Shown one piece after another: positions 29,438-45,470 of a stretch of DNA of 64,000 nucleotides. The stretch is from NCBI GenBank assembly GCA_020350425.1, contig CP070716.1:2430967-2494966 (forward strand). The letters run 5' to 3'. Source of the stretch: Gemmatimonadota bacterium (lineage in GTDB: Bacteria; Gemmatimonadota; Gemmatimonadetes; Gemmatimonadales; GWC2-71-9). Numbering within the stretch: the first letter of the stretch is position 1; each line of letters begins with the position of its first letter. The position numbers and the translations under genes were made by a program. The notes beneath the pieces were generated by a model. It was not told the DNA's origin and made no database searches. It saw only the letters and a list, made by a program, of their open reading frames with translations.

Positions 29438-30406
29438 TTAAATCTCCCAGTTCGAGAACACGACCACACCGGCCGGCGGCCGTGCCTCCGGGAATTGGTC
29501 CAGCGTCATCCTCAGATCGGTCCAGCGCACGCGATACCCCCGCGTGAGCAGCGCCCGGTAGGCCCGCGAATAGGCTGTCTGGCATCGGATGGCCACGCGC
29601 CGGACGCGCTCACCTGCCGCGCAGGCCTCCAGCACCACGAGCAGCCGGACAAACGCCTCATCCGAATCGGCGAACAACTTCAGTACCCGCAGCTCCTCCG
29701 GCCGGCGCCCCTCGGCCAGCGGAGCGGAATGCCACAGGGCGAATCCCGCAACATCATCGTCTCCGTCGATCACCACCGTATCGCCGATCCCGAGCTCCGC
29801 CGTCAACTCGATCTCTCGACTGAAATCGTAGCCCGCGGCGGCGCGGTCGAGGCGCTTGGCGCAACGCCCGACCAGCGCCCGGCGCCCGTCGGCCGGGAGC
29901 GAGCCGAGACGATGGAACTCGCCTCCGACTCGGCGGCGGGACGCCTCTCCCGTCATGGTCACGGTGAGCATCCCCGGCACGAAGCCGAGGCGCCCGTAGA
30001 ACCCGATGTTCTCCACCGTGCGCGGCATCGTTTCGAGGCCGAGCGTGGTGACGCCGCGCTCGCGCAGCCACGCCGTGGCGGTCTCGACGATCACCCGCCC
30101 CGCACCCAACCCCTGGCGGTCGGTGCGCACGGCAAGTGGCCCCATCCATCCCTCGGTGCCGGAGCGGTGAGCGACGTTGAACGCCACGACTTCATCGTGA
30201 TCGTCGCACCACAGCATGGCCCCCGGTCCGGCGTCACTGATCGCGTACCGCCAGATGTCCCGATGGAGCCTGGGTACCCGCACGCCCACCAGCCCGTCGC
30301 GCCGGTACCGATCGGTGAAGGCCTCCGAGAACACCTGGTTCAGAGCGTCCACGTCATCGACGGTGGCCGCCCGCGGACCTACCAGCAGTCGTTCAGGCCG
30401 CAACAT
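29438..30406 (-). CDS. GNAT family N-acetyltransferase, two-domain
   Basis: A 322-aa acetyltransferase. An N-terminal GNAT domain (about residues 10-140) carries the acetyl-CoA loop RQGLGAGRVIVETA and the common NIGFYGRLGF helix-strand pair. A second half of about 150 residues looks like a degenerate GNAT-like or ligand domain. The ATG overlaps the end of the SbcC-like gene by 14 nt, so it is the last gene of the operon. The substrate cannot be told. The N-terminal region reads HRDIWRYAISDAGPGAML, unlike rimI types. Confidence 0.85.
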   Translation of the reverse strand: MLRPERLLVGPRAATVDDVDALNQVFSEAFTDRYRRDGLVGVRVPRLHRDIWRYAISDAGPGAMLWCDDHDEVVAFNVAHRSGTEGWMGPLAVRTDRQGLGAGRVIVETATAWLRERGVTTLGLETMPRTVENIGFYGRLGFVPGMLTVTMTGEASRRRVGGEFHRLGSLPADGRRALVGRCAKRLDRAAAGYDFSREIELTAELGIGDTVVIDGDDDVAGFALWHSAPLAEGRRPEELRVLKLFADSDEAFVRLLVVLEACAAGERVRRVAIRCQTAYSRAYRALLTRGYRVRWTDLRMTLDQFPEARPPAGVVVFSNWEI

Positions 30407-32822
30407 GCTCACCGTCGAACGTCAGTTGGTCTTCGCTCACCGTGGCTGCTCCCCGTTGCTCGTCGAGCTCCACACGCAATACGCGATCCACCCCGTCGCG
30501 GACCGATTCAATGTGCGTGATGAGCACCACCTGCGGGAACCGGTCGGCCAATCCCCGCAGCAGGCGCACGACGCTGTGGCGTCGGTGCTCGTCGAGGCTC
30601 CCGAAGATCTCGTCGAGCACCAGCAACGATAGCGGCTGGCCGGCTCGCTCCGCGACCATCTGGCTGATCGCGAGACGCAGAACCAGATGCGTGAGATCCT
30701 CCTCACCGCCTGAGATCACGGGCTTCGCCACGCCGTCTTCCACCACCAATACCTGGTACTGCTCATCGAGCTCCAGCTCGCCGTACCGTCCGTCCGTGAG
30801 ACCCACCAGGAACTCGGATGCGCGCTCTGCGAGCTCCGGCCGCATCGCCGTGTTCAGCTCGAGCCGCAGGTCGTGCAGCGCGCGATCGAGTTCGTCGTGC
30901 AGCGTGATCTCACGCTCGAGCTCGCCGATCCGCACCGCGCGCTCCTCTCGCTCGCGAATGCGACGCTCCGCACCCTCCAGGGCCGCGCGCGCCGCCTTCC
31001 AGTCGCCCTGCACCGAGGCGAGCTGCAGCTCCGCGTCGCGCAGCGCCGCCTCGGTCTCTTCATACCGCTGCCGCGCCTCGGCATACGCGGCCTCGTCATA
31101 TCCGAGGTCGGCAAGTGCCTCCGCTAGTTGGCCCACCAGCGTTTCGCGCTCCGACAAGGCACGTTCCGCCGCCTCCGCCTCCGACACGAGCCGCTCTGCG
31201 CGGGCCGCCTTCGTATCGAGCTGAGTGGCCAGCTGCACCGTGGGCTCCAGCTCGCGCAGCCGCTCACGCACCGCGTCATGCCGCACAGCGTCGTACGCGT
31301 CGGGTAGCTCAGCCACCTCCCGTTCCAGCTCCGCCTTGCGCCGCTCGAGCCGCTCGAGCTCCGTATCGAGTTCCGCCCCGTCCCGCATGCGGTCTTCACA
31401 ACGCGCCACCTCCTGCACCGCCTGCTCCACGCTCTCGGCCGCGCGCTCGGTCCGCTCCTCCGTCTCACGCACCGCGGCGGGCGGATCCTTCAGCTGATCG
31501 ATGCGCTGGCGGAAGAACTTCCCCTTGACCTCGATCTCCTCCATCTGTCGGTCGAGCGTGCCCAGCACGTCCTGATACACCTCACCGAGCGGACGTCTGC
31601 AAATGGGGCACTCACCGTCCTCTCCAGCCTCCAGCACGCTGTGCCGGTGGCGCTGGTGATCGAGGTACTGGTCCCGCAAGTTGGCCCGCTTGGTCTCGGC
31701 GTCCTGTCGGTCTCGCACCCAGGTCGTGCGGATCTTCTCTTGTTCCGACTCGGCGCTCTCGAGCTCGCGTCGTGCTGCCTCGAGCGCCTCCTGTGCGCGC
31801 TTCAGCGCCTGCGGGACGTCCCCCATCCGCCCTCGGCGCTCGCGCGCCCGCTCCACCTGCTCTCCGAGCTCACGCAACTGGCCCGCCAGGGAGCGTCGCG
31901 TCCCCGCGCTGCGGGCTTCATGCTCCAGTCGCTCCAGTTCGTCCTTGAGCGGTGGCACTTCCTGCAGCGGCTCCTGGAGCGCATCGAGCCGTGCGCGTGC
32001 TGCCAGGGCTTCGGCCAGCTCCTTGTCCAAACGGTCGAACTCGCGGCGCGCCTCGGCGACGTCGCGCTCCGCCATCCGCCGTTCCCCATCGAGGGCCAGT
32101 GCCGACTCCCGCAGCTCGACCATGCGGGTCCACACCGGCCCTTCCCGGTCGAGCCCCGCGACGGCGGCAGCGCGCGCCTCCTCTCCCTGCGTAACCGCCG
32201 CCTGCGCTTCGGCGGCGCGCCGCTCAGCCTCTGCCCGCTCCTCCTCGAGAGCCGCCGCGTCCGCGAGTCCCCGCTCCAGTCCGGTGAGCTCACCCCGCAG
32301 TCCCGAACGCGCATCCCGCAGTCGATCCTGCGCGAGCCGCAACTTCTCGTACCCCAGCACGCGTGACAGGAATCGGGCCCGATCCGTGGGCCCCATGGCG
32401 GACATGACCGCGAGCTCTTTCTGGCCAGTGAAGTAGGTGTTGAAGAACTCGTCCCGGGTCATGCCGAGCAGCCGCTCGACCCGCGCGCTCACCTCCTGCT
32501 GACTGTTGGCGATGGGATCGTCGTGGCGGTCCTGAAAGAGCTCGGCACCGTAGAGGCCACGTGCCACACGGAACTGGTGCGCGCCCAGCGAGAACTCCAC
32601 CTCGACCCGCACCGAGGAGCGCGCCGCCGCTCGGTTCCACCGAAGGGTGTCGCGGCTACCCCGGGCTGCCGGGTTGCCGTAGAAAGCCCACGCGATCGCC
32701 TCGAGCAACGTGGTCTTCCCCGACCCGTTCGGACCGATGATGGCGGTGATGCCGGGCCCGAACACGATGTCGGTGTCAGCGTGCTGCCGGAAGTTCAGCA
32801 GCTTCAGGCGGTGCAGCTGCAT
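30393..32822 (-). CDS. SbcC/Rad50-like ATPase with zinc hook
   Basis: An 809-aa SMC-related ATPase of the Mre11-Rad50 nuclease complex. The N-terminal lobe has Walker A IIGPNGSGKTTLLEA (residues 29-43) after FRQHADTDIVFGPG. A coiled coil runs from about 160 to 700 and is split by the zinc hook CPICRRPLG at residues 405-413, exactly mid-protein, which dimerises the rods. The C-terminal lobe has signature SGGEEDLTHLVLRLA and Walker B LSLLVLDEIFGSLDE. It is shorter than E. coli SbcC (about 1050 aa), nearer archaeal Rad50 in size. Directly downstream of SbcD (start one base after its stop). Confidence 0.95.
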   Translation of the reverse strand: MQLHRLKLLNFRQHADTDIVFGPGITAIIGPNGSGKTTLLEAIAWAFYGNPAARGSRDTLRWNRAAARSSVRVEVEFSLGAHQFRVARGLYGAELFQDRHDDPIANSQQEVSARVERLLGMTRDEFFNTYFTGQKELAVMSAMGPTDRARFLSRVLGYEKLRLAQDRLRDARSGLRGELTGLERGLADAAALEEERAEAERRAAEAQAAVTQGEEARAAAVAGLDREGPVWTRMVELRESALALDGERRMAERDVAEARREFDRLDKELAEALAARARLDALQEPLQEVPPLKDELERLEHEARSAGTRRSLAGQLRELGEQVERARERRGRMGDVPQALKRAQEALEAARRELESAESEQEKIRTTWVRDRQDAETKRANLRDQYLDHQRHRHSVLEAGEDGECPICRRPLGEVYQDVLGTLDRQMEEIEVKGKFFRQRIDQLKDPPAAVRETEERTERAAESVEQAVQEVARCEDRMRDGAELDTELERLERRKAELEREVAELPDAYDAVRHDAVRERLRELEPTVQLATQLDTKAARAERLVSEAEAAERALSERETLVGQLAEALADLGYDEAAYAEARQRYEETEAALRDAELQLASVQGDWKAARAALEGAERRIREREERAVRIGELEREITLHDELDRALHDLRLELNTAMRPELAERASEFLVGLTDGRYGELELDEQYQVLVVEDGVAKPVISGGEEDLTHLVLRLAISQMVAERAGQPLSLLVLDEIFGSLDEHRRHSVVRLLRGLADRFPQVVLITHIESVRDGVDRVLRVELDEQRGAATVSEDQLTFDGEHVAA

Positions 32823-34010
32823 CTATTCCTCGCGCAGCGCCTGCTCGACCTCGTGCATGTAACGCTCTCCCAGCGTCACCAGCCGGTCGCGGTTGACGTC
32901 GGCGTCGATCGGGCGCCGACGCAGATAGTCTGCGAGCAGCTCGCTCAGCGTCTGGCGCTGCCCCGGAGCGCCCACCCCCACCGCACGCTGCTCCTGGGGA
33001 CGTCTCAGGTCGAGGTGATAATGCAGCGCGCGGGCCTTGAGGTCGCGAATGCGCGCATGATCGAGATCGCGGGCCAGGGGCCGCGGCACATCGTATACCA
33101 CCTGCCGCACAATCTGGTCGTCAATGCCGCCAGCGACGTCGTCCACCCGCGCAACGATCGCGGCGTCGATCTCCGCAGGACTCAACCCCGCGGCGTGAAT
33201 GGGTGAGAGGTCGACCACGGCGCGCGCGAGGGGAATGCTTCGAAACTCCACCTTCGCCCTCTCGGCCAGATCGACCAGCAGCCACCCCTTCTGCCGTTCC
33301 CGCCCTTCCCGCTTCTCGTCACGGAGCTCGCCCCACGGATTGGTGCTCACGTATTCCAGGGCACCGCAGTACCAAGCGTTCTCACGCACCTGGTGCGCCA
33401 CGTGGTAGTGTCCCAGAGCCACGTAGTCCCATCCGTCCGCGTTGAGCTCGTCGGGCTCGAACACCGCGCCACCGTACTCGACGGCCCCTGCATCACGCGG
33501 CAGCACCCCCGCGACCTCCCCGTGGGTCACTGCCACTCGGAAGCGCGTCCCGCGCGGCGGGGCGAGCGTGGGGCGGGGATCGTACATCCACGCACTGTGC
33601 GGCACGCACGTGACGCTCAGGTCGAGCTCCTCGAACACGAGATCGCGCGGCTCCTCGGCCACCACGCGCACGCCCGGCACGGCCTCGAACAACCGCAGAA
33701 TGGTGCCGGTCTCTATGGAGCGCGGGGTGTCGTGATTGCCGGCGACGATCACGACGGGCACCGATGGCAGCGCCTCGCGCAAGCGCCGGAATTGTCCGAA
33801 CGAGTGGAGGATGGCCGCGTTCGTCGGACGCACGGAGTTGAACAGGTCACCCGCAATCAGGATGATATCCGGCGCGGTTTCGATCAGGTCGTCGACGGTG
33901 CGGCGGAACGCACCCGCCACGTCGGCTTCTCGCTGGTTGATCCCCTGGGAGGTGAGACGGTGATACTGCCGGAAGCCGAGATGGACGTCTGCGAGGTGGG
34001 CGAGCTTCAC
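32823..34010 (-). CDS. SbcD/Mre11-like DNA exonuclease
   Basis: This 395-aa calcineurin-type nuclease pairs with the Rad50-like protein to process double-strand ends. Motifs in order are LADVHLG (D8, H10), IAGDLFNSVRPTN, VAGNHDTP and VTHGEVAG, then DYVALGHYH (metal-binding His pair). A C-terminal capping and Rad50-binding region of about 140 residues follows. Its stop is followed immediately by the SbcC start. It lies downstream of two exported paralogues and a HerA-like ATPase in the same operon. Confidence 0.95.
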   Translation of the reverse strand: MKLAHLADVHLGFRQYHRLTSQGINQREADVAGAFRRTVDDLIETAPDIILIAGDLFNSVRPTNAAILHSFGQFRRLREALPSVPVVIVAGNHDTPRSIETGTILRLFEAVPGVRVVAEEPRDLVFEELDLSVTCVPHSAWMYDPRPTLAPPRGTRFRVAVTHGEVAGVLPRDAGAVEYGGAVFEPDELNADGWDYVALGHYHVAHQVRENAWYCGALEYVSTNPWGELRDEKREGRERQKGWLLVDLAERAKVEFRSIPLARAVVDLSPIHAAGLSPAEIDAAIVARVDDVAGGIDDQIVRQVVYDVPRPLARDLDHARIRDLKARALHYHLDLRRPQEQRAVGVGAPGQRQTLSELLADYLRRRPIDADVNRDRLVTLGERYMHEVEQALREE

Positions 34011-34011
34011 G

Positions 34012-34848
34012 CTAGGGGAGCACCGATTGTCGCACAGTGGTCTCGAGGCTGAGTCGGCCTCGCTCGGGCACGCTGACCACCACCTGCAGCCGCACCGCTG
34101 CGGCGACCCAACCCCGCCATCCCGTCGACCAGACGAGCGTGCCCATCGTCGCTCCGGCGAACTGATGGGTGCTCCCGTCCTCCCGCCTGAGAGTGGTGGG
34201 TGTGAGGGCTCCGCTGTAGCGGATGTACGCCAACGTGTCCTGGTCGCGGGCGGTCAGCGAATCGAGCCTGAAGTCCATCTCCATCCCCAAGAGCGCCGAC
34301 GGCGCCTCCACCGGGGCGTGCCCGACAAGCTCTCCGAGCTGGAACTCGAGCCGCGAGCTCCAGTACTGCCCCTGACGGAGCCAGCCACCCGGGAGCTCCA
34401 TCCCCGGCGCCCCGGTCAGCAAGTGCAAGAGCATCCCCGAGCCGGGGCGATCACCGCCGGCGGTCGCTTCCACCACTCGCATGCGCGAGTCCAGGCTCAC
34501 TTGGAGCCACAGGCTGTCGAGCGCGGTCACCTCGTACTCGCGCCACGACTCGTCACCCTCCCGCATGCGTGCGCGAAGCGAGTCGTACGCCAGGTGCACG
34601 ATCAGCGCTCCATCCGGACCGGGCAGCGCCACCTCCGTGACCCCCCCCAGGTCGGCCGCTTCCCGCGCCGGCCCCGCAGCCTCACCCGCCGCCCCGACAC
34701 CGGTGATGCGTGTGTGGGACTGGAACACGCGGTGCACCTTTACGCCGGCGACGGGGTGATACCGCAGCAACAGGCTGTCTTGTGCGGCGAGCCCAAGCGG
34801 GAAGGCCGTGAATGTCGCCAGCGCGACGAGGACGGGGCGCAGCATCAT
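34012..34848 (-). CDS. Exported hypothetical protein, paralogue of the gene upstream
   Basis: A 278-aa protein with a signal peptide (MMLRPVLVALATFTAFPLGLAAQ). The mature part begins DSLLLRYHPVAGVKVHRVF and has a beta-rich body with LDSLWLQVSLDSRMRVVEA. Near the end are a WSTGWRGWVAAAVRLQ segment and the ending LETTVRQSVLP. It has the same layout as the protein encoded immediately upstream (ATGA overlap): both start with LLR-x-H/Y-P after the signal and end with a WSTGW run. It lies one base before sbcD. Why a DNA-repair operon carries exported proteins is unknown. Confidence 0.75.
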   Translation of the reverse strand: MMLRPVLVALATFTAFPLGLAAQDSLLLRYHPVAGVKVHRVFQSHTRITGVGAAGEAAGPAREAADLGGVTEVALPGPDGALIVHLAYDSLRARMREGDESWREYEVTALDSLWLQVSLDSRMRVVEATAGGDRPGSGMLLHLLTGAPGMELPGGWLRQGQYWSSRLEFQLGELVGHAPVEAPSALLGMEMDFRLDSLTARDQDTLAYIRYSGALTPTTLRREDGSTHQFAGATMGTLVWSTGWRGWVAAAVRLQVVVSVPERGRLSLETTVRQSVLP

Positions 34849-35759
34849 GGACGCACCTGGAAGCGAGTGGAGTGGTCCATGCTCAGGGTGACTTCCACGA
34901 TCGTCTGCTCCATCTCCTCCGAGCGCTCCATGGTGAGCGTCGAACGGGTCCGCAGCGCGCCCGATACGAAGGCGTTCCACCCGGTCGACCAGATGAAGCT
35001 TCCGCCAAACGCTCCCGTGATTCCCACGAGCGACGCGCTCATTGCCTCGCCCTCGGCAGCAGCCTCGGGAAGAAAGCTCCCCTGGACCCGGAGATACGCG
35101 AGCGTGTCCGTGGGACGCGCGACCACGCTGTCGAGCGTGATCGTGGACCGGGCCAGCACTTCCGGCTCTACCGGCATGCCCTCCAGCACTCCCTCACCCT
35201 CGAGCCCCAGCGGACGCGTCAACGCGACCACAATGTCGGCAGCCCAGGTGTCGCCTTCGGCCACCGGACCCTCCGGCAGGGAGAACTCCAGCCCCGACGC
35301 GAAGGCGCGGTAGTGCTGCAGCTCGCGATTCGTGAGCGAATCACCCTCCAGCACCTCGACATCGGTGACACGCAACCGGTCGTCCACGACGACCCGGGCA
35401 GTGGAGCTGCGCGCTCGCTCGTCGCCGAGATCGCGCCACGGCCCGCCTGGCACGCGCGACCGCGCCCGGGTCGAGTCGTGCGAGATCCGCAGCACCGAGC
35501 TGGTGATGCGCGTCCCAACCACGCTGGTGGTGTAGCTGTGCAAGGTGGTGGCCTCGACGGTGATGCTGTCGAGGGCCGGCACGCCAGGCGCGCCCTCGCG
35601 AATCGTGCTCGTCACCTCCGACCACCAGAGCGTGTGAAGCCTCGTGCGCGGCTGCGGCTGGTGCCGCAACAAAATCGACTGCTGGGCGGAGACGGCCTGG
35701 GGCAGCCCCATGAGGGCGACACACGCCAGGGCGCCGAGCAAGGTCGTCCTACGTCGCAT
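34845..35759 (-). CDS. Exported hypothetical protein, paralogue of the gene downstream
   Basis: A 304-aa protein with a signal peptide (MRRRTTLLGALACVALMGLPQAVSA), mature start QQSILLRHQPQPRTRLHTLWW, and a beta-rich body including VVDDRLRVTDVEVLEG and FALPEGPVAEGDTWA-like strands. The WSTGWNAFVSGALRTRS segment and VEVTLSMD end resemble those of its neighbour at 34012. Duplication in tandem is thus likely. It begins 11 nt inside the 3' end of the herA-like gene. No catalytic residues are evident. Confidence 0.75.
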   Translation of the reverse strand: MRRRTTLLGALACVALMGLPQAVSAQQSILLRHQPQPRTRLHTLWWSEVTSTIREGAPGVPALDSITVEATTLHSYTTSVVGTRITSSVLRISHDSTRARSRVPGGPWRDLGDERARSSTARVVVDDRLRVTDVEVLEGDSLTNRELQHYRAFASGLEFSLPEGPVAEGDTWAADIVVALTRPLGLEGEGVLEGMPVEPEVLARSTITLDSVVARPTDTLAYLRVQGSFLPEAAAEGEAMSASLVGITGAFGGSFIWSTGWNAFVSGALRTRSTLTMERSEEMEQTIVEVTLSMDHSTRFQVRP

Positions 35760-37695
35760 AGGGATCCTCCACCTGTCTGAGTGGTATGGTCGCACTACTA
35801 CCTTCCCGGCGCACCTGCTCCCGTGCCACGGTCCTCCCGAGGTTCGCCGTGAAGAACCCCACGACATCGTCGGGTCGGGCACGCTTGGTGGCGAGGAGCG
35901 CGCGCCGGACGTCCTCCTCCCGCCGCCCCGCCATGGAGTCCTTGATCCGTGCCGGGGACACGCGCCGATCGAGCGCCGCCAGCTGCCGCACGACGGCCTC
36001 CTCGAACGGCACATCGGCTGCCGGCGGATAACGCCTCACGCCGGCGGGCCCGCTCATCACCGCCGGCCTCGGGAATCGCACGAACACCGGCTGCGTGAAG
36101 TGCGGGTGCCGCACCATGAGCTCCCCTTTTGGAAGCGTGGCCAGCTTGATCTTGGTCGCCGGCGACAGCACCTGATACCCGGGCGTCGCGAGCTCGTCCA
36201 TGTCCATCCGGCCGAAGACCATGGTGCCCGCATTGCCCACGATCCGGCGGTGCACCTGCGAACGGAACTGCTGGGCCGCAAACAGCACCAAACCGAGATA
36301 GCGTCCCCGTTCCGAGATGTCCAGCAGCATCTTGCGAACGTAGGTGTCGGGGCCGTCGGCCGGCGCGTACTTGTTGAGCTCGTCCACGAACACGACCACG
36401 TGCTCCACGCCCAGGTCACCCCGCTCGAGATGCTCCCGCAACATGGAGACAACCCGGGTGAACACCAGATCCTGCCCGAGCTGGTCCATGCCCGACACAT
36501 CCAATACATACACCGCGCGGTCCTCGAACGCTCCAAACGGGAGATCGTTCACCGAGCCGTCGTCGGTCACGAGCCCCCTGCAGCGGGTGGAGATGTTGAT
36601 GAGGCGGTTCCGCACCTTGCGAATCGTAGCGATGTGATGCGTGCGCCAGACGTCGCTCCGGCCGGCCTGCTCCAGCCCATCGAAGATGCTGCGGAACAGT
36701 CGCTCCAGGTCAGCGAAGGAGCGCACACGGTGCGTGCCACCCCAGTCGTCCCTGAACTCCTTCTCCACCACGCGATCCGCCAGGAAATCGAGGAACGCGT
36801 CGGCCTTCGCGTCGATGTCGTCGCGATTGAGCAGCACCTCGTGGTAGTTGAGGACCTCGCGCAGTCCCCAAACCAGGGGTTGTACCGACCCTACCAGTTC
36901 GGCGTGTGAGCGCAGCGTATTGAGATTCACGCCGTCCGGCTTGAACGGGGCGAAGTACTGCACCCCGTCGAAGGGCCGTGGCTCGATCTCGAGCGCCGCG
37001 TACAGTTCCCGGTCGGCCTCCGTCAGCTCACCGGGCTGATCGAGGAAGCACAGGTCCGGCCCCTTCACGTTGAAGCACACGGCCGCCACGGAACCCTTGT
37101 GGCTCGGCAGCCGCTGGAAGATGCTCGCCAGCATGAACTCCACAGCGCTTGTCTTGGTGGCGAGGCCCGAGACGCCGCTGATGTTGAGGTGGGCCGATTC
37201 CGGGCCGAGTAGAAAATCCGCGTCCAGCGAGACCGGCGCCGTGAGCCCGCCAGCGCGGTACACGCCCACCGGGATTCCGGTGGGCTGCTCGCAACGCACG
37301 TACCCGTCCATGCGCAGCGCCATCTCCACGTCTGCCTGCGATGCCAGGCGCACCTCGGCCAGCGGCACAGGCTGCACCGGCTCCTCGGGCTCGTGACGCA
37401 GGACAGCGGCCGTCCACAGCCGGACCTCGGTGCGCCGGGTGGGCGCCGGCACCCCGGACGGATCACCCTCTGCCGCGACCACCTCGTGGAGCGGCGTCGC
37501 CAGATCGGAGTACGCCCGGCCATCCACCACCACCGCATACACCCGGCGGCCGCTGTCCGCGTCCACCCGCACGATGGCCCCGATCCCGAGGGTCGTATCG
37601 GTGGCGGTCCAGAAGTGGAACTGGTGCGGACCCGCCGGGAGCGCCTCGGTCGCGACCACCCGTCCGATCGTCTCGCCGTTCCCTCCGCGAATCAC
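35749..37695 (-). CDS. herA: HerA-like hexameric ATPase (HAS-barrel + DUF87)
   Basis: A 648-aa FtsK/HerA-family ATPase that in archaea drives DNA through the NurA nuclease. Residues 8-115 form a HAS-barrel-like region; residues 165-550 the ATPase. The Walker A position reads NISGVSGLATKTS (about 171-183): the invariant Gly before Lys is Thr, as I recall for some bacterial DUF87 proteins. Walker B is HVVVFVDELNKYAP (D438, E439), and a later LVLFAAQQFRSQVHRRI sensor run is present. The GTG start follows AGGAGGCTG and overlaps the NurA-like stop (GTGA). Other COG0433 ATPases are possible, but the neighbours favour HerA. Confidence 0.88.
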   Translation of the reverse strand: MIRGGNGETIGRVVATEALPAGPHQFHFWTATDTTLGIGAIVRVDADSGRRVYAVVVDGRAYSDLATPLHEVVAAEGDPSGVPAPTRRTEVRLWTAAVLRHEPEEPVQPVPLAEVRLASQADVEMALRMDGYVRCEQPTGIPVGVYRAGGLTAPVSLDADFLLGPESAHLNISGVSGLATKTSAVEFMLASIFQRLPSHKGSVAAVCFNVKGPDLCFLDQPGELTEADRELYAALEIEPRPFDGVQYFAPFKPDGVNLNTLRSHAELVGSVQPLVWGLREVLNYHEVLLNRDDIDAKADAFLDFLADRVVEKEFRDDWGGTHRVRSFADLERLFRSIFDGLEQAGRSDVWRTHHIATIRKVRNRLINISTRCRGLVTDDGSVNDLPFGAFEDRAVYVLDVSGMDQLGQDLVFTRVVSMLREHLERGDLGVEHVVVFVDELNKYAPADGPDTYVRKMLLDISERGRYLGLVLFAAQQFRSQVHRRIVGNAGTMVFGRMDMDELATPGYQVLSPATKIKLATLPKGELMVRHPHFTQPVFVRFPRPAVMSGPAGVRRYPPAADVPFEEAVVRQLAALDRRVSPARIKDSMAGRREEDVRRALLATKRARPDDVVGFFTANLGRTVAREQVRREGSSATIPLRQVEDPYAT

Positions 37696-38645
37696 CACCA
37701 GCCTCCTACCTGTGCGCGCAAGAACGTCTCCACCTGCCGAATGGGATAGAGTAAGCGATCCCAGCGACCGTCCGGCGCGCTGAGTGGGGCGCGTTCCGCC
37801 AGCAGCCATCGGCTCACCGCCGTGGCCTCGGCCAACGCGGCGTCGGTCGCGGGACGCTCGATCCGCACCAGGCCGTGCAGGAGATCCCGGTCCTCCCACG
37901 ACCAGAGTCGAAGATACCACGTGTAAACGGAGCCGCGCCCCCCCACGCGGCGGGCGAACACGCTGCTGCGGTGCCCCTCCGGCAGCGTCACGGCAACCTC
38001 GAGGTCCGGGCCGTCGAGGAACTGCGTCTCGTGGCTCTTGATCAGGCCGAGCACCCGCGGAGCACTGCCCAGGAGGTGCGTCAGGCCCCCCAGCCCGCCG
38101 TCGACGACCAGCCAGCTGTCGGGCTCGGAGCGGAGCAGCGCCGTCGCGACGGCAACCTCGAGCTCCTCGCGCCGCCGCTCCACTGCTCTCGCCGCGAGCT
38201 GCACGTCCACGACGGGATGCGCACGCTCTCCCGCCTCGCAGTCGAGCAAGGGGATCCCGGTGTCGGCCAACGCCTGCCGCTGGCCGGGGCTGATCCGCTC
38301 CAAGGGGACAACAATCATCTCCTCGGCCTCGTGCTCGGCCAGCCGGAGTCGGTCTCCCTCGCGGCGCAGGGCGGCGGCCGCGACGTAGCCCCGCACCACC
38401 GGCACGAGCCCGAAGCGACCTTCCACGGCGTAGCGCTGGATACCGTCGAGGAATGCCGTCTGCTCGGGCGGGGGCGCCGGACCGCCCACGTCGATGGACC
38501 GAATCGCATCCCCTTCGACGTGGCTTGCCGAGCCGAACGGGGAGGCGACCGGCGGCGGAACGTGCGTGAGGGGCGAGCCGGCCCGCGTCGTCCCCCCGGC
38601 CTGGCGGAGGGCCCGGTGCAGGCGGTGGCGGACGGAATTGCTCAG
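37692..38645 (-). CDS. nurA: NurA-like nuclease, start uncertain (candidate CTG)
   Basis: A NurA-family 5'-3' nuclease candidate that pairs with HerA. The clearly coded part from the GTG at 38489 (265 aa) starts VGGPAPPPEQTAFLDGIQRY and includes DSWLVVDGGLG and VLGLIKSHETQFL, consistent with the NurA fold (Asp-containing VDG/FLDG and K-S-H motifs). The frame stays open upstream without ATG, GTG or TTG; it reads NSVRHRLHRALRQAGG and later DAIRSIDVGG, where the Asp may be catalytic. The only sensible start is CTG at 38643-38645 after GGGAGGAG (317 aa). A one-base frameshift or sequencing error is the alternative. Confidence 0.7.
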   Translation of the reverse strand: MSNSVRHRLHRALRQAGGTTRAGSPLTHVPPPVASPFGSASHVEGDAIRSIDVGGPAPPPEQTAFLDGIQRYAVEGRFGLVPVVRGYVAAAALRREGDRLRLAEHEAEEMIVVPLERISPGQRQALADTGIPLLDCEAGERAHPVVDVQLAARAVERRREELEVAVATALLRSEPDSWLVVDGGLGGLTHLLGSAPRVLGLIKSHETQFLDGPDLEVAVTLPEGHRSSVFARRVGGRGSVYTWYLRLWSWEDRDLLHGLVRIERPATDAALAEATAVSRWLLAERAPLSAPDGRWDRLLYPIRQVETFLRAQVGGWW

Positions 38646-41775: not shown

Positions 41776-43101
41776 GTGTCCTGGACCTATGCGCCGACGT
41801 TCGACGCCGGCCACCGTGCCGCGCTGGCCGGTGGGAAGAACCTGATCTACGTCTGCCCGCCCACGGGGTGGGCCGTCGTCCCGCTGCTGCAACGGCTCGC
41901 AGAGACACCGGAACCCGGCCTCGGCACCCTCCTCCTTGCCTCCGAGCCGAGCGACGCGGTCGAGCTGGCCGCGCTAGCCGCCACGATCGAGACACTCCGG
42001 CCCGTCCACGCAGTGTCCGGGCTTGCCCGAGCCGGCCGACTCCTCAAGTCCGGGGCGGTTCGGACCCTCGTGACCACCCCAGCCGACGCCCTGCAGCTCG
42101 TGAGCCGCGCGCTGCTCAAGCTGGAAGGGCTTCCCCGCGTGGGCGTGCTCTGGCCGGAAACCCACTTCGCGCTCGGGGCGGCGTCCACGATCGACACGGT
42201 GCTCGCGGAGTGCGGCGGCGCCCAGCGCCTCGTAGTCACCGCGGACGAGGCTCCCCTGGCCGACTTCCTGGAGCGGCATGCGCGGCGGGCGCCGGTGGTG
42301 GGAGCCGGCCGGCTCCCCGCTGAGCCGGGGGGCCGAGTGCGCTACGCGGTGGTGGACCCCCAGCGCCTGGCTTGGGCGGTGCGGGCCGCCCTGGACGTGC
42401 TCAACCCGGCCTCCGCCCTGTTGTGGGATCCCACCCCGGCCGCCGGGCACCGCTGGGCCGAATACGACGCCGATCCGTCGGTCCGGGTGGACGCCCATCC
42501 CGGCAACGAGCCGGTGGAGTGGGCCATCGCCACCGAGCTCCCTTCAGCCGACGCCTTGACCGCGCTGCACGAGGCCGCACGGAACGTGCTGGTCCTCGCG
42601 CGGCCCGCGCAGCTAGCCTATCTCGAGCGGCTCACCCGATCGTGCGACGTGCTGCGGCTGCCCTCCGAGGCCGACCGGGCCCGGGATCGCGCCAGTTCGG
42701 TGCGAGCCGAGCTCCGCGACCGCATCGAGGGCGGGGAGCTCCTGGGCGGCCTGGCCACGCTCGCGCCCCTGTTTGACGAGTACGACCCCGCGCTGGTCGC
42801 GGCGGCAGCGCTCCGGGTGGGCGAGCCCGCGACCCCGGTCCGACAGGCCACCGAGGAGATTCCCACGTGGGCCCACGTACACGTGAATGCCGGCCGCCGT
42901 GACCGGATTCGCCCCGGTGACGTGGTCGGGGCCCTGCTCAACGCCGTGGGAATCCCCAAGGACGCCGTCGGGCGGGTGGACGTGCGGGACAGCTTTTCCC
43001 TGGTCGAGGTACGCTCAGAGGTGGCGGCGCAGGTGCTGCGGGAGCTCAGCGGCCTGACGCTGCGCGGCCGCAGCGTGACCGCGCGAATAGACAAGAGGTA
43101 A
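41776..43101 (+). CDS. Degenerate helicase-like protein with C-terminal DbpA-type RNA-binding domain
   Basis: A 441-aa protein. The first ~330 residues have the two-RecA layout of a DEAD-box protein: VTTPADALQLV resembles motif Ib and LPRVGVLWPETHF sits where DEAD should be, and TADEAP follows as the SAT-like position. But the Walker A site has only CPPTGWAVV, with no GKT, so ATP use is unlikely. The last 80 residues (THVHVNAGRRDRIRPGDVVGAL, VGRVDVRDSFSLVEV) match the DbpA RNA-binding domain that recognises 23S rRNA hairpin 92. It may be a catalytically dead ribosome-binding factor. GTG start after GAGGG. Confidence 0.75.
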   Translation: MSWTYAPTFDAGHRAALAGGKNLIYVCPPTGWAVVPLLQRLAETPEPGLGTLLLASEPSDAVELAALAATIETLRPVHAVSGLARAGRLLKSGAVRTLVTTPADALQLVSRALLKLEGLPRVGVLWPETHFALGAASTIDTVLAECGGAQRLVVTADEAPLADFLERHARRAPVVGAGRLPAEPGGRVRYAVVDPQRLAWAVRAALDVLNPASALLWDPTPAAGHRWAEYDADPSVRVDAHPGNEPVEWAIATELPSADALTALHEAARNVLVLARPAQLAYLERLTRSCDVLRLPSEADRARDRASSVRAELRDRIEGGELLGGLATLAPLFDEYDPALVAAAALRVGEPATPVRQATEEIPTWAHVHVNAGRRDRIRPGDVVGALLNAVGIPKDAVGRVDVRDSFSLVEVRSEVAAQVLRELSGLTLRGRSVTARIDKR

Positions 43102-44291: not shown

Positions 44292-45470
44292 ATGCTCAAC
44301 ATCGGCCTCACAGGGAACATCGGCGCGGGGAAGAGCACCGTGGCCCGCTGGTTACGCGAGTGGGGCGCGACGCTGATCGACTCCGACGAGCTGGTGCGAG
44401 AGGTCCAGCTCCCCGGATCGGCCACGCTGCGCGCGATCGCGCAGCGGTTCGGATCCGACATCCTGAAACCCGACGGCTCGCTCGATCGTGACGTGCTGCG
44501 GGCCCGGGCCATGCGCGATGCGCAGAGCCTCAACGCCCTGAACGAGATCGTGCACCCCGCCGTCCAGCAGCTGCGTACCGAGCGGGCACGCCTGGCGGCC
44601 GAGCGCGGCGATTGCGTGCTGGTCAACGACATTCCGCTGCTCTTCGAGGTTCTCGATCCCGGCGACTTCGACGTCGTCGTCCTGGTGGACGCGCCGGAGG
44701 CACTGCGGCGCGAGCGGATCGAGCGGGAGCGGGGCCTCTCCCCGGAGGTTGCCGAGCGCATGATCGCCGCGCAGCTCCCCGCCGCGGAGAAGCGCGCCCG
44801 CAGCGGCATCGTGCTCGACAACGACGGCGCGTTGGAGGAGCTCGAGGCCGCCACGCACGCCGCGTGGCGCACGATCCGACAGCGTGCCGCCGCCAAGCTC
44901 CTCGACGGTCCGGGGGTGTTCCTGGCCGTGGCGACCGACCAGCGGGAGGCCGTGCGCGCTTTCGGTGGGACGATGGCCCGCTACGCCGATGCCGGCGCGG
45001 AGACGTGGCTGGCGTGCATCGCACCGGGCGCCTCCGAGCAGGGGGCCGAGGCCCTCGGCCTCCACGGCACCCTCCTCCTCCGGGCCCCCGGCCAGGACGC
45101 CGGTGACGAGCCCGCCGTCACCGCTGCGGTGGAGCGCGTGATCCGCCAGCGTCGCCCCGACGTGACCGTCACCATCGGGCCAGGCGACGGCACGCAGGCG
45201 ACGCTCTACCACACGGCCCGCAGTGCGTGGAGCGCAGCCGGCTCACCCGGCATGCTCTTCTGCAGCACGCCTTCCCGTGCGGGTCCCTCGATCCACGCGC
45301 AGCTCGACGTGCGTCCGTGGCGAGACGTGCGAGCGGCTGCGCTCGACGCCCTCGGCGCGGCCGAGGATGCCGCCACAACGCCCCTCGTCGAGCGCGAAGT
45401 GTTCACGGCCGCCGTGCCACCGAAGCAGCTGCTCGTGGACCTGTTTCACGCCGTGGATCGAGCCGGTTGA
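44292..45470 (+). CDS. coaE: Dephospho-CoA kinase fused to a degenerate PIG-L/LmbE-like domain
   Basis: A 392-aa fusion. Residues 1-203 are CoaE, which makes coenzyme A from dephospho-CoA: P-loop GLTGNIGAGKST (6-16), DSDELVREV (31), and VNDIPLLFE and ERGLSPEVAERMIAAQ. Residues 207-392 resemble a PIG-L deacetylase: VFLAVATDQREAVRAFGGTM aligns with the VAPHPDDEALGCGGT start, and RPDVTVTIGPGDGTQATLYH sits at the second metal site. The HPDD metal residues are replaced (ATDQRE), so it cannot bind zinc the usual way. The role of the extra domain is unknown, perhaps substrate recognition or oligomerisation. Confidence 0.85.
   Translation: MLNIGLTGNIGAGKSTVARWLREWGATLIDSDELVREVQLPGSATLRAIAQRFGSDILKPDGSLDRDVLRARAMRDAQSLNALNEIVHPAVQQLRTERARLAAERGDCVLVNDIPLLFEVLDPGDFDVVVLVDAPEALRRERIERERGLSPEVAERMIAAQLPAAEKRARSGIVLDNDGALEELEAATHAAWRTIRQRAAAKLLDGPGVFLAVATDQREAVRAFGGTMARYADAGAETWLACIAPGASEQGAEALGLHGTLLLRAPGQDAGDEPAVTAAVERVIRQRRPDVTVTIGPGDGTQATLYHTARSAWSAAGSPGMLFCSTPSRAGPSIHAQLDVRPWRDVRAAALDALGAAEDAATTPLVEREVFTAAVPPKQLLVDLFHAVDRAG

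Follow-up and report, generated by a model that had tools for sequence, protein, structure and literature searches.

What does a protein do that joins the RNA-binding domain of a DEAD-box RNA helicase to a helicase core without its catalytic motifs? The question is raised by a gene at 41776–43101 (+ strand) of the analyzed window, a stretch of 64,000 nucleotides of contig CP070716.1 from a Gemmatimonadota bacterium. An earlier note, made from the letters of this DNA, had described its product as a catalytically dead, DEAD-box-like protein with an intact rRNA-binding tail, which could be a ribosome assembly or hibernation factor. Bacterial DEAD-box proteins have been studied as ATP-driven remodelers; our analysis points to a pseudohelicase that would act as an ATP-independent RNA-binding scaffold or chaperone, a reading to which we assign a probability of about 60%.

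The coordinates and frame of the gene are correct: it starts with GTG at 41776, stops at 43099–43101 and encodes 441 amino acids, and the start residue is common to its relatives (M at column 1 in 12 of 12 aligned rows). The protein consists of a complete RecA1 domain, a shortened RecA2 domain, helices resembling a dimerization domain and a DbpA-type RNA-binding domain (RBD). An HMM search confirmed the intact DbpA domain claimed by the earlier note: PF03880 matches residues 369–437 with an E-value of 1.4e-21 and 76.7 bits (cut-off 25.6), and the domain spans 42868–43095, in agreement with the predicted structure. Single-sequence searches with Pfam detected no family above cut-off in the first 350 residues, and Pfam and NCBIfam together matched only the RBD of the window protein. 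Since such searches are blind to the RecA part, this blank is not evidence against descent from DEAD-box proteins.

Profile comparisons revealed what one sequence could not. A profile of 61 dead members (A1) aligned with that of 22 active DeaD proteins (A2) with a probability of 100 and an E-value of 1e-40 over 455 columns, covering all domains and leaving a gap at the expected place of motifs IVa and V. Among solved structures, the A1 profile found CshA (1.3e-19), Hera (6e-18) and also the RecA domains of eIF4A. The structure predicted for the window protein (mean pLDDT 93.6, pTM 0.74) contains two RecA domains and the RBD, and its best Foldseek match is DbpA (7pli, E 8.8e-19). VIA-align superposed this model on CshA (5ivl) with a Z-score of 21.2 and an rmsd of 6.3 over 278 aligned residues, and RecA1 alone (model residues 3–176) on 6aib with a Z-score of 21.2 and an rmsd of 2.6 over 171 residues. 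Profiles and predicted fold thus bear out the DEAD-box likeness; the earlier note would have fallen with a fold lacking RecA domains, and superposition found both.

RecA1 (residues 3–176, 41782–42303) retains its whole fold and none of the ATP or RNA motifs, as seen in the predicted structure and the VIA-align superposition. According to profile-profile comparison, predicted structure and motif alignment, RecA2 (residues 177–294, 42304–42657) is shortened and devoid of motifs IVa, V and VI. The following helical segment (residues 298–350, 42667–42825) aligns in the profile-profile comparison with the DeaD dimerization domain of active relatives; the Pfam model of this domain, PF25399, matches 11 of the 61 relatives and not the window protein, in which the segment still aligns with the dimer region of A2.

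The motif alignment places the Walker A site (motif I) at 41848–41883, where the protein reads YVCPPTGWAVVP, with PPTGWAV at the P-loop, and motif II at 42154–42165, where residues 127–130 read PETH within WPETH. The missing Walker A Lys and the PETH in place of the DEAD box were both correctly noticed before, and the GKT and DEAD of a functional DEAD-box enzyme are absent from these sites. Judged by sequence, the window protein lacks the motifs on which a hairpin-92-stimulated ATPase or helicase depends. This loss extends throughout the family: all six motifs are found in 22 of 22 active DeaD proteins, and motifs Ia, V and VI each in none of the 123 distinct pseudohelicases. G.GK[ST] occurs anywhere in only four of the 123 (at the P-loop in L205 and L215, elsewhere in L056 and unplaced in L022), DEAD in three, of which only L226 has it at motif II, and SAT in one. 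In the 62 aligned members, GKT is found at the P-loop in two, DEAD at motif II in one and both together in none, and motifs V and VI are gone. In members from the order, the P-loop site reads PP or similar and motif II reads WPE or WxD; those in other orders keep P-loop remnants such as GPGSG.

Three members from outside the order deserve attention. L205 (genome G109) and L215 (G117), both of family f6, have an intact GSGKT P-loop without DEAD at motif II and without motifs V and VI, and L226 (G164) of family f7 kept DEAD at motif II and lost the P-loop Lys. Read from these sequences, the order of motif loss differed between lineages. As L205 and L215 keep GKT, some members may still bind nucleotide; both are possible ATP-binding, non-unwinding intermediates, and their intermediate appearance opens the sequence of motif losses to study. 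The RecA2 domain was trimmed as well: the stretch from motif IV to the dimer segment measures 126 residues in six active DeaD proteins of the alignment, compared with medians of 85 in 24 order members and 104 in 38 rows labelled N (ten of them again order members), so that the pseudohelicases are shorter here by about 20–40 residues.

All 62 pseudohelicases in a 93-row tree fall into a single clade (SH-aLRT 100). Its sister group consists of 13 active DeaD proteins (grouped with it at a support of 98), and the 18 other DEAD-box enzymes, L031 of the window genome among them, stand apart; the attachment point has to be taken with caution, as the tree comes from a quick search and the stem is long (0.84). 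The sister placement gains independent support from the shared RBD and dimer segment. The pseudohelicases have a single, old origin from the DeaD lineage.

A first search of 101 genomes from the window genome's own family and order gave matches in 98, from which 111 open frames were cut. Twenty-two of these are active DeaD-type genes with AATGTGKT and the others lack this motif; leaving aside three second copies and L112, 85 frames were counted. A profile of dead relatives (A4) brought up additional members, some from the order and some from further orders of its class, giving 123 distinct genes; L038, L117, L118 and L240, second copies of genes already taken, were dropped before counting. L112 (G096) was rejected as a pseudohelicase: its locus has a PF25399 match in a 621-aa frame and the RBD in a 397-aa frame, and it looks like the C-terminal frame of a frame-broken active DeaD gene.

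Conservation analysis showed the pseudohelicase in 99 of the 101 Gemmatimonadales genomes (60 of 61 in f1, to which the window genome belongs, 33 of 33 in its sister family f2 and 6 of 7 in f3), two f1 cases (G008 and G009) being contig-end fragments only. It was not found in two incomplete genomes, G056 (82%) and G074 (71%). Elsewhere in the class, a member was confirmed in 28 of 32 genomes, a biased share since these genomes were chosen partly for high scores and 20 loci are best-scoring places; no member was found in G112 (f7), G116 and G133 (f4) or G143 (f8). None was seen in the sister class f9, where the loci read in four genomes (L231–L234) are ordinary active DEAD-box genes and G103 gave no match. 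A pattern scan for close relatives yielded 38 loci, 37 of them titled Gemmatimonadetes, Gemmatimonadota or Gemmatimonadales and one 'Bacterium HR33'. The carriers are soil and sediment bacteria.

The dN/dS ratio over the whole protein lies between 0.07 and 0.28 in 13 pairs (from the 14 closest among 21 pairs that exceed 68% identity, after removal of L235/L240), rough values from a simple Nei-Gojobori calculation on GC-rich genomes. Mean pairwise identity is highest in the RBD (0.425), followed by the helices (0.39), RecA1 (0.324) and RecA2 (0.283), with seven rows (L112 and six without RBD) excluded from the averages. The family is under purifying selection, and the window protein is not one odd or decayed protein but belongs to an ancient, class-wide clade. 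With a helicase fold, lost motifs and maintenance by selection, its members are pseudohelicases in the sense of PMC9539457.

The gene is flanked by Peptidase S58 or other genes on one side and by HU, thymidine kinase, coaE, gcvH and gcvP on the other, an arrangement kept in much of f1 and partly in f2 and f3. In f1, the HU gene lies on the opposite strand between the pseudohelicase and thymidine kinase genes, so that we regard the conserved neighborhood as a sign of orthology rather than of shared function. These neighbors give no pointer to ribosomes, which counts against a ribosomal role.

Two other regions of the window were noted in passing. The dephospho-CoA kinase CoaE (44292–45470, + strand) has a C-terminal extension of about 200 aa with a weak match to PIG-L deacetylases (PF02585, E 2e-4, below cut-off), and the CoaE proteins encoded at the same place in relatives are long (330–440 aa) in many genomes and short (about 200 aa) in others. 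On the minus strand, 30393–38489 holds genes that we take to be SbcC/Rad50 and SbcD/Mre11, beside what are presumably a HerA-like ATPase (35749–37920) and a NurA-like protein (37692–38489), neither of which has a Pfam match; going by these names, this bacterium would possess an end-resection set of archaeal appearance. Two adjacent ORFs (34012–36014, − strand) beside the SbcD-like gene share a similar layout and secreted-looking starts and have no assigned family.

The closest rival to a general scaffold or chaperone is a special case of it, a strict ribosome-assembly factor whose RBD would bind hairpin 92 of nascent 23S rRNA and protect the peptidyl-transferase region or recruit another factor. 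It is hairpin 92 that draws DbpA itself to nascent ribosomes (PMC7973409), and among solved structures the RBD is nearer to DbpA than to DeaD/CsdA: the window protein alone found only E. coli DbpA and B. subtilis YxiN at E≤1, and among RBD-bearing chains the family profile scored 58.7 bits with DbpA (7bbb), 35.8 with YxiN (2g0c) and 30.7 with DeaD (5b88). The YxiN RBD binds guanine through an Ile-Gly-x-Ile element, as described in PMC3695512; this element corresponds to V398-G399-R400-V401 of the window protein, and G399 is invariant in A1. On the other hand, the uridine-contacting Lys427 of YxiN corresponds to Asn389 in an alignment read by eye, although E. coli DbpA likewise lacks a Lys there, and the RBD of Hera, of the same family, does not read the hairpin-92 loop but another RNA (PMC3695512). 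Hairpin 92 is therefore only a candidate target.

The 28 members from the class that lie outside the order, and every counted member of f1 and f3, have the RBD; it is absent from 16 of the 123 members, all in f2. These end instead in Arg/Gly/Pro/Asp-rich tails, in which the four residues make up a mean of 0.63, compared with 0.40 in the others. In one such protein, L097, the tail is predicted to be disordered (pLDDT about 40) and the RecA pair is still folded (CshA: Z-score 22.3, rmsd 6.3, 278 aligned). On a 41-row tree built without the columns concerned, the change from RBD to tail took at least four steps, two of which are forced by well-supported branches. Arg/Gly-rich disordered tails are generally known to bind RNA. 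Hairpin-92 binding cannot define a family that lost the RBD in these 16 members, and the loss counts against one fixed rRNA site; as the RBD was exchanged for an Arg/Gly-rich tail, selection seems, from the sequences at hand, to keep RNA contact rather than recognition of that hairpin. On balance we regard the strict assembly factor as rather unlikely, and favor the general scaffold or chaperone. We also considered whether the RBD was lost where an active RBD helicase is present, but the RBD was missing in 12 of the 25 f2 rows that have the active gene and in 4 of the 7 that do not (together 32 of the 33 f2 genomes, G086 being outside the tree), with too few independent pairs for a test, and the idea was dropped.

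The distribution of active RBD helicases bears on a further explanation, a regulatory or dominant-negative partner that would use the shared dimer domain to form a heterodimer with active DeaD. The alignment of the helical segment with this domain and the PF25399 matches in 11 of 61 members agree with it, as does f2, where two RBD genes are present in 14 of 33 genomes (the remainder being 3 with only the dead one, 12 with only the active one and 4 with neither). The window genome, by comparison, carries a single RBD in its whole contig, located in the pseudohelicase gene. Its seven DEAD matches, the best of which is L031, an ordinary 430-aa DEAD-box enzyme without RBD, include no active DbpA or DeaD, which agrees with the earlier interpretation. 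Throughout f1, an RBD was found in 60 of 61 genomes and a second one in only six, all active DeaD proteins with intact motifs; thus, 54 of the 60 f1 genomes with a pseudohelicase lack an active RBD helicase, and PF25399 revealed no further DeaD above cut-off there. In f3, 6 of 7 genomes have the dead RBD protein only, so that all six f3 genomes with a pseudohelicase are without a second RBD protein, and here too PF25399 revealed no further DeaD above cut-off. This census indicates that across most of f1 and f3 the pseudohelicase does its work with no active RBD helicase beside it, and rules out heterodimerization with DeaD as a general mechanism; overall we consider this explanation improbable.

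Still less probable is the ribosome hibernation factor suggested earlier. Its sole favorable point is that the RBD could bind ribosomal RNA; Pfam found no other domain, and hairpin 92 lies in the peptidyl-transferase centre, a region that lacks structure only up to the late stages of subunit maturation (PMC7973409). This proposal finds no support. A decaying pseudogene or assembly artefact, conceivable in a genome that is 75% complete by marker count though in one contig, has a negligible chance in view of open orthologues in nearly all genomes of the order, conserved synteny and the low dN/dS values.

We therefore return to the pseudohelicase as an RNA-binding scaffold or chaperone. Its descent from DeaD, the loss of catalytic and core RNA-contact motifs, the intact RBD, the single origin, the selection and the persistence without active DeaD are shown by computation. 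By homology we infer RNA binding, dimerization and ribosome association. In the proposed mechanism, a DeaD-type RNA helicase ancestor would have given up ATP binding, hydrolysis and RNA unwinding and kept its tandem RecA fold as a scaffold. Structured RNA would be bound via the RBD, or via the Arg/Gly-rich tail in one lineage, and the protein might dimerize through its helical segment; the dead RecA pair would then form a docking surface on which folding RNA is held or chaperoned, with no need for ATP. The weakest step is the substrate, by homology most likely precursor rRNA, perhaps the 23S peptidyl-transferase region visited by DbpA, and ribosome assembly is, again by homology, the most plausible setting. 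If the reading is true, the DeaD architecture has a selected ATP-free function, kept class-wide and, in f1, mostly without an active paralogue.

No description of this pseudohelicase family was found in the open-access literature, subscription journals being mostly outside the search. Pseudohelicases are known as a kind; as far as these searches go, the lineage, its breadth and the exchange of RBD for tail are new. Compared with DeaD/CsdA, Hera and DbpA, the family shares the fold and the order RecA1–RecA2–dimer segment–RBD and is the sister clade of active DeaD proteins from the same phylum; it differs from them in that motifs Ia, V and VI are found in 0 of 123 members, P-loop and DEAD box are lost in nearly all, and RecA2 is shortened. 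A bacterial pseudohelicase is reported in PriA of Deinococcus radiodurans, likewise a helicase-family member without helicase function, which, in contrast, is a DNA replication-restart protein and not a DEAD-box RNA helicase (PMC4504706).

The best parallel is Utp25/Def, an essential pseudohelicase of the eukaryotic SSU processome, compared here by its description in PMC9539457. Like the bacterial family, Utp25 has a DEAD-box-derived tandem RecA fold without working motifs that is conserved for a non-catalytic role, and growth is not visibly affected when its remaining motifs Ia and VI are mutated. It differs in being eukaryotic and in its N-terminal disordered extension, and the description mentions no DbpA RBD. 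Utp25 acts in ribosome assembly, a role only proposed for the bacterial protein. We tentatively entertain a class-wide counterpart of Utp25: an ATP-independent scaffold for ribosome assembly or RNA folding that arose once from DeaD, outlived its active paralogue in many lineages and exchanged its RBD for a disordered, RGG-like tail. If true, these proteins would allow the pseudohelicases of eukaryotic ribosome assembly to be modelled in bacteria.
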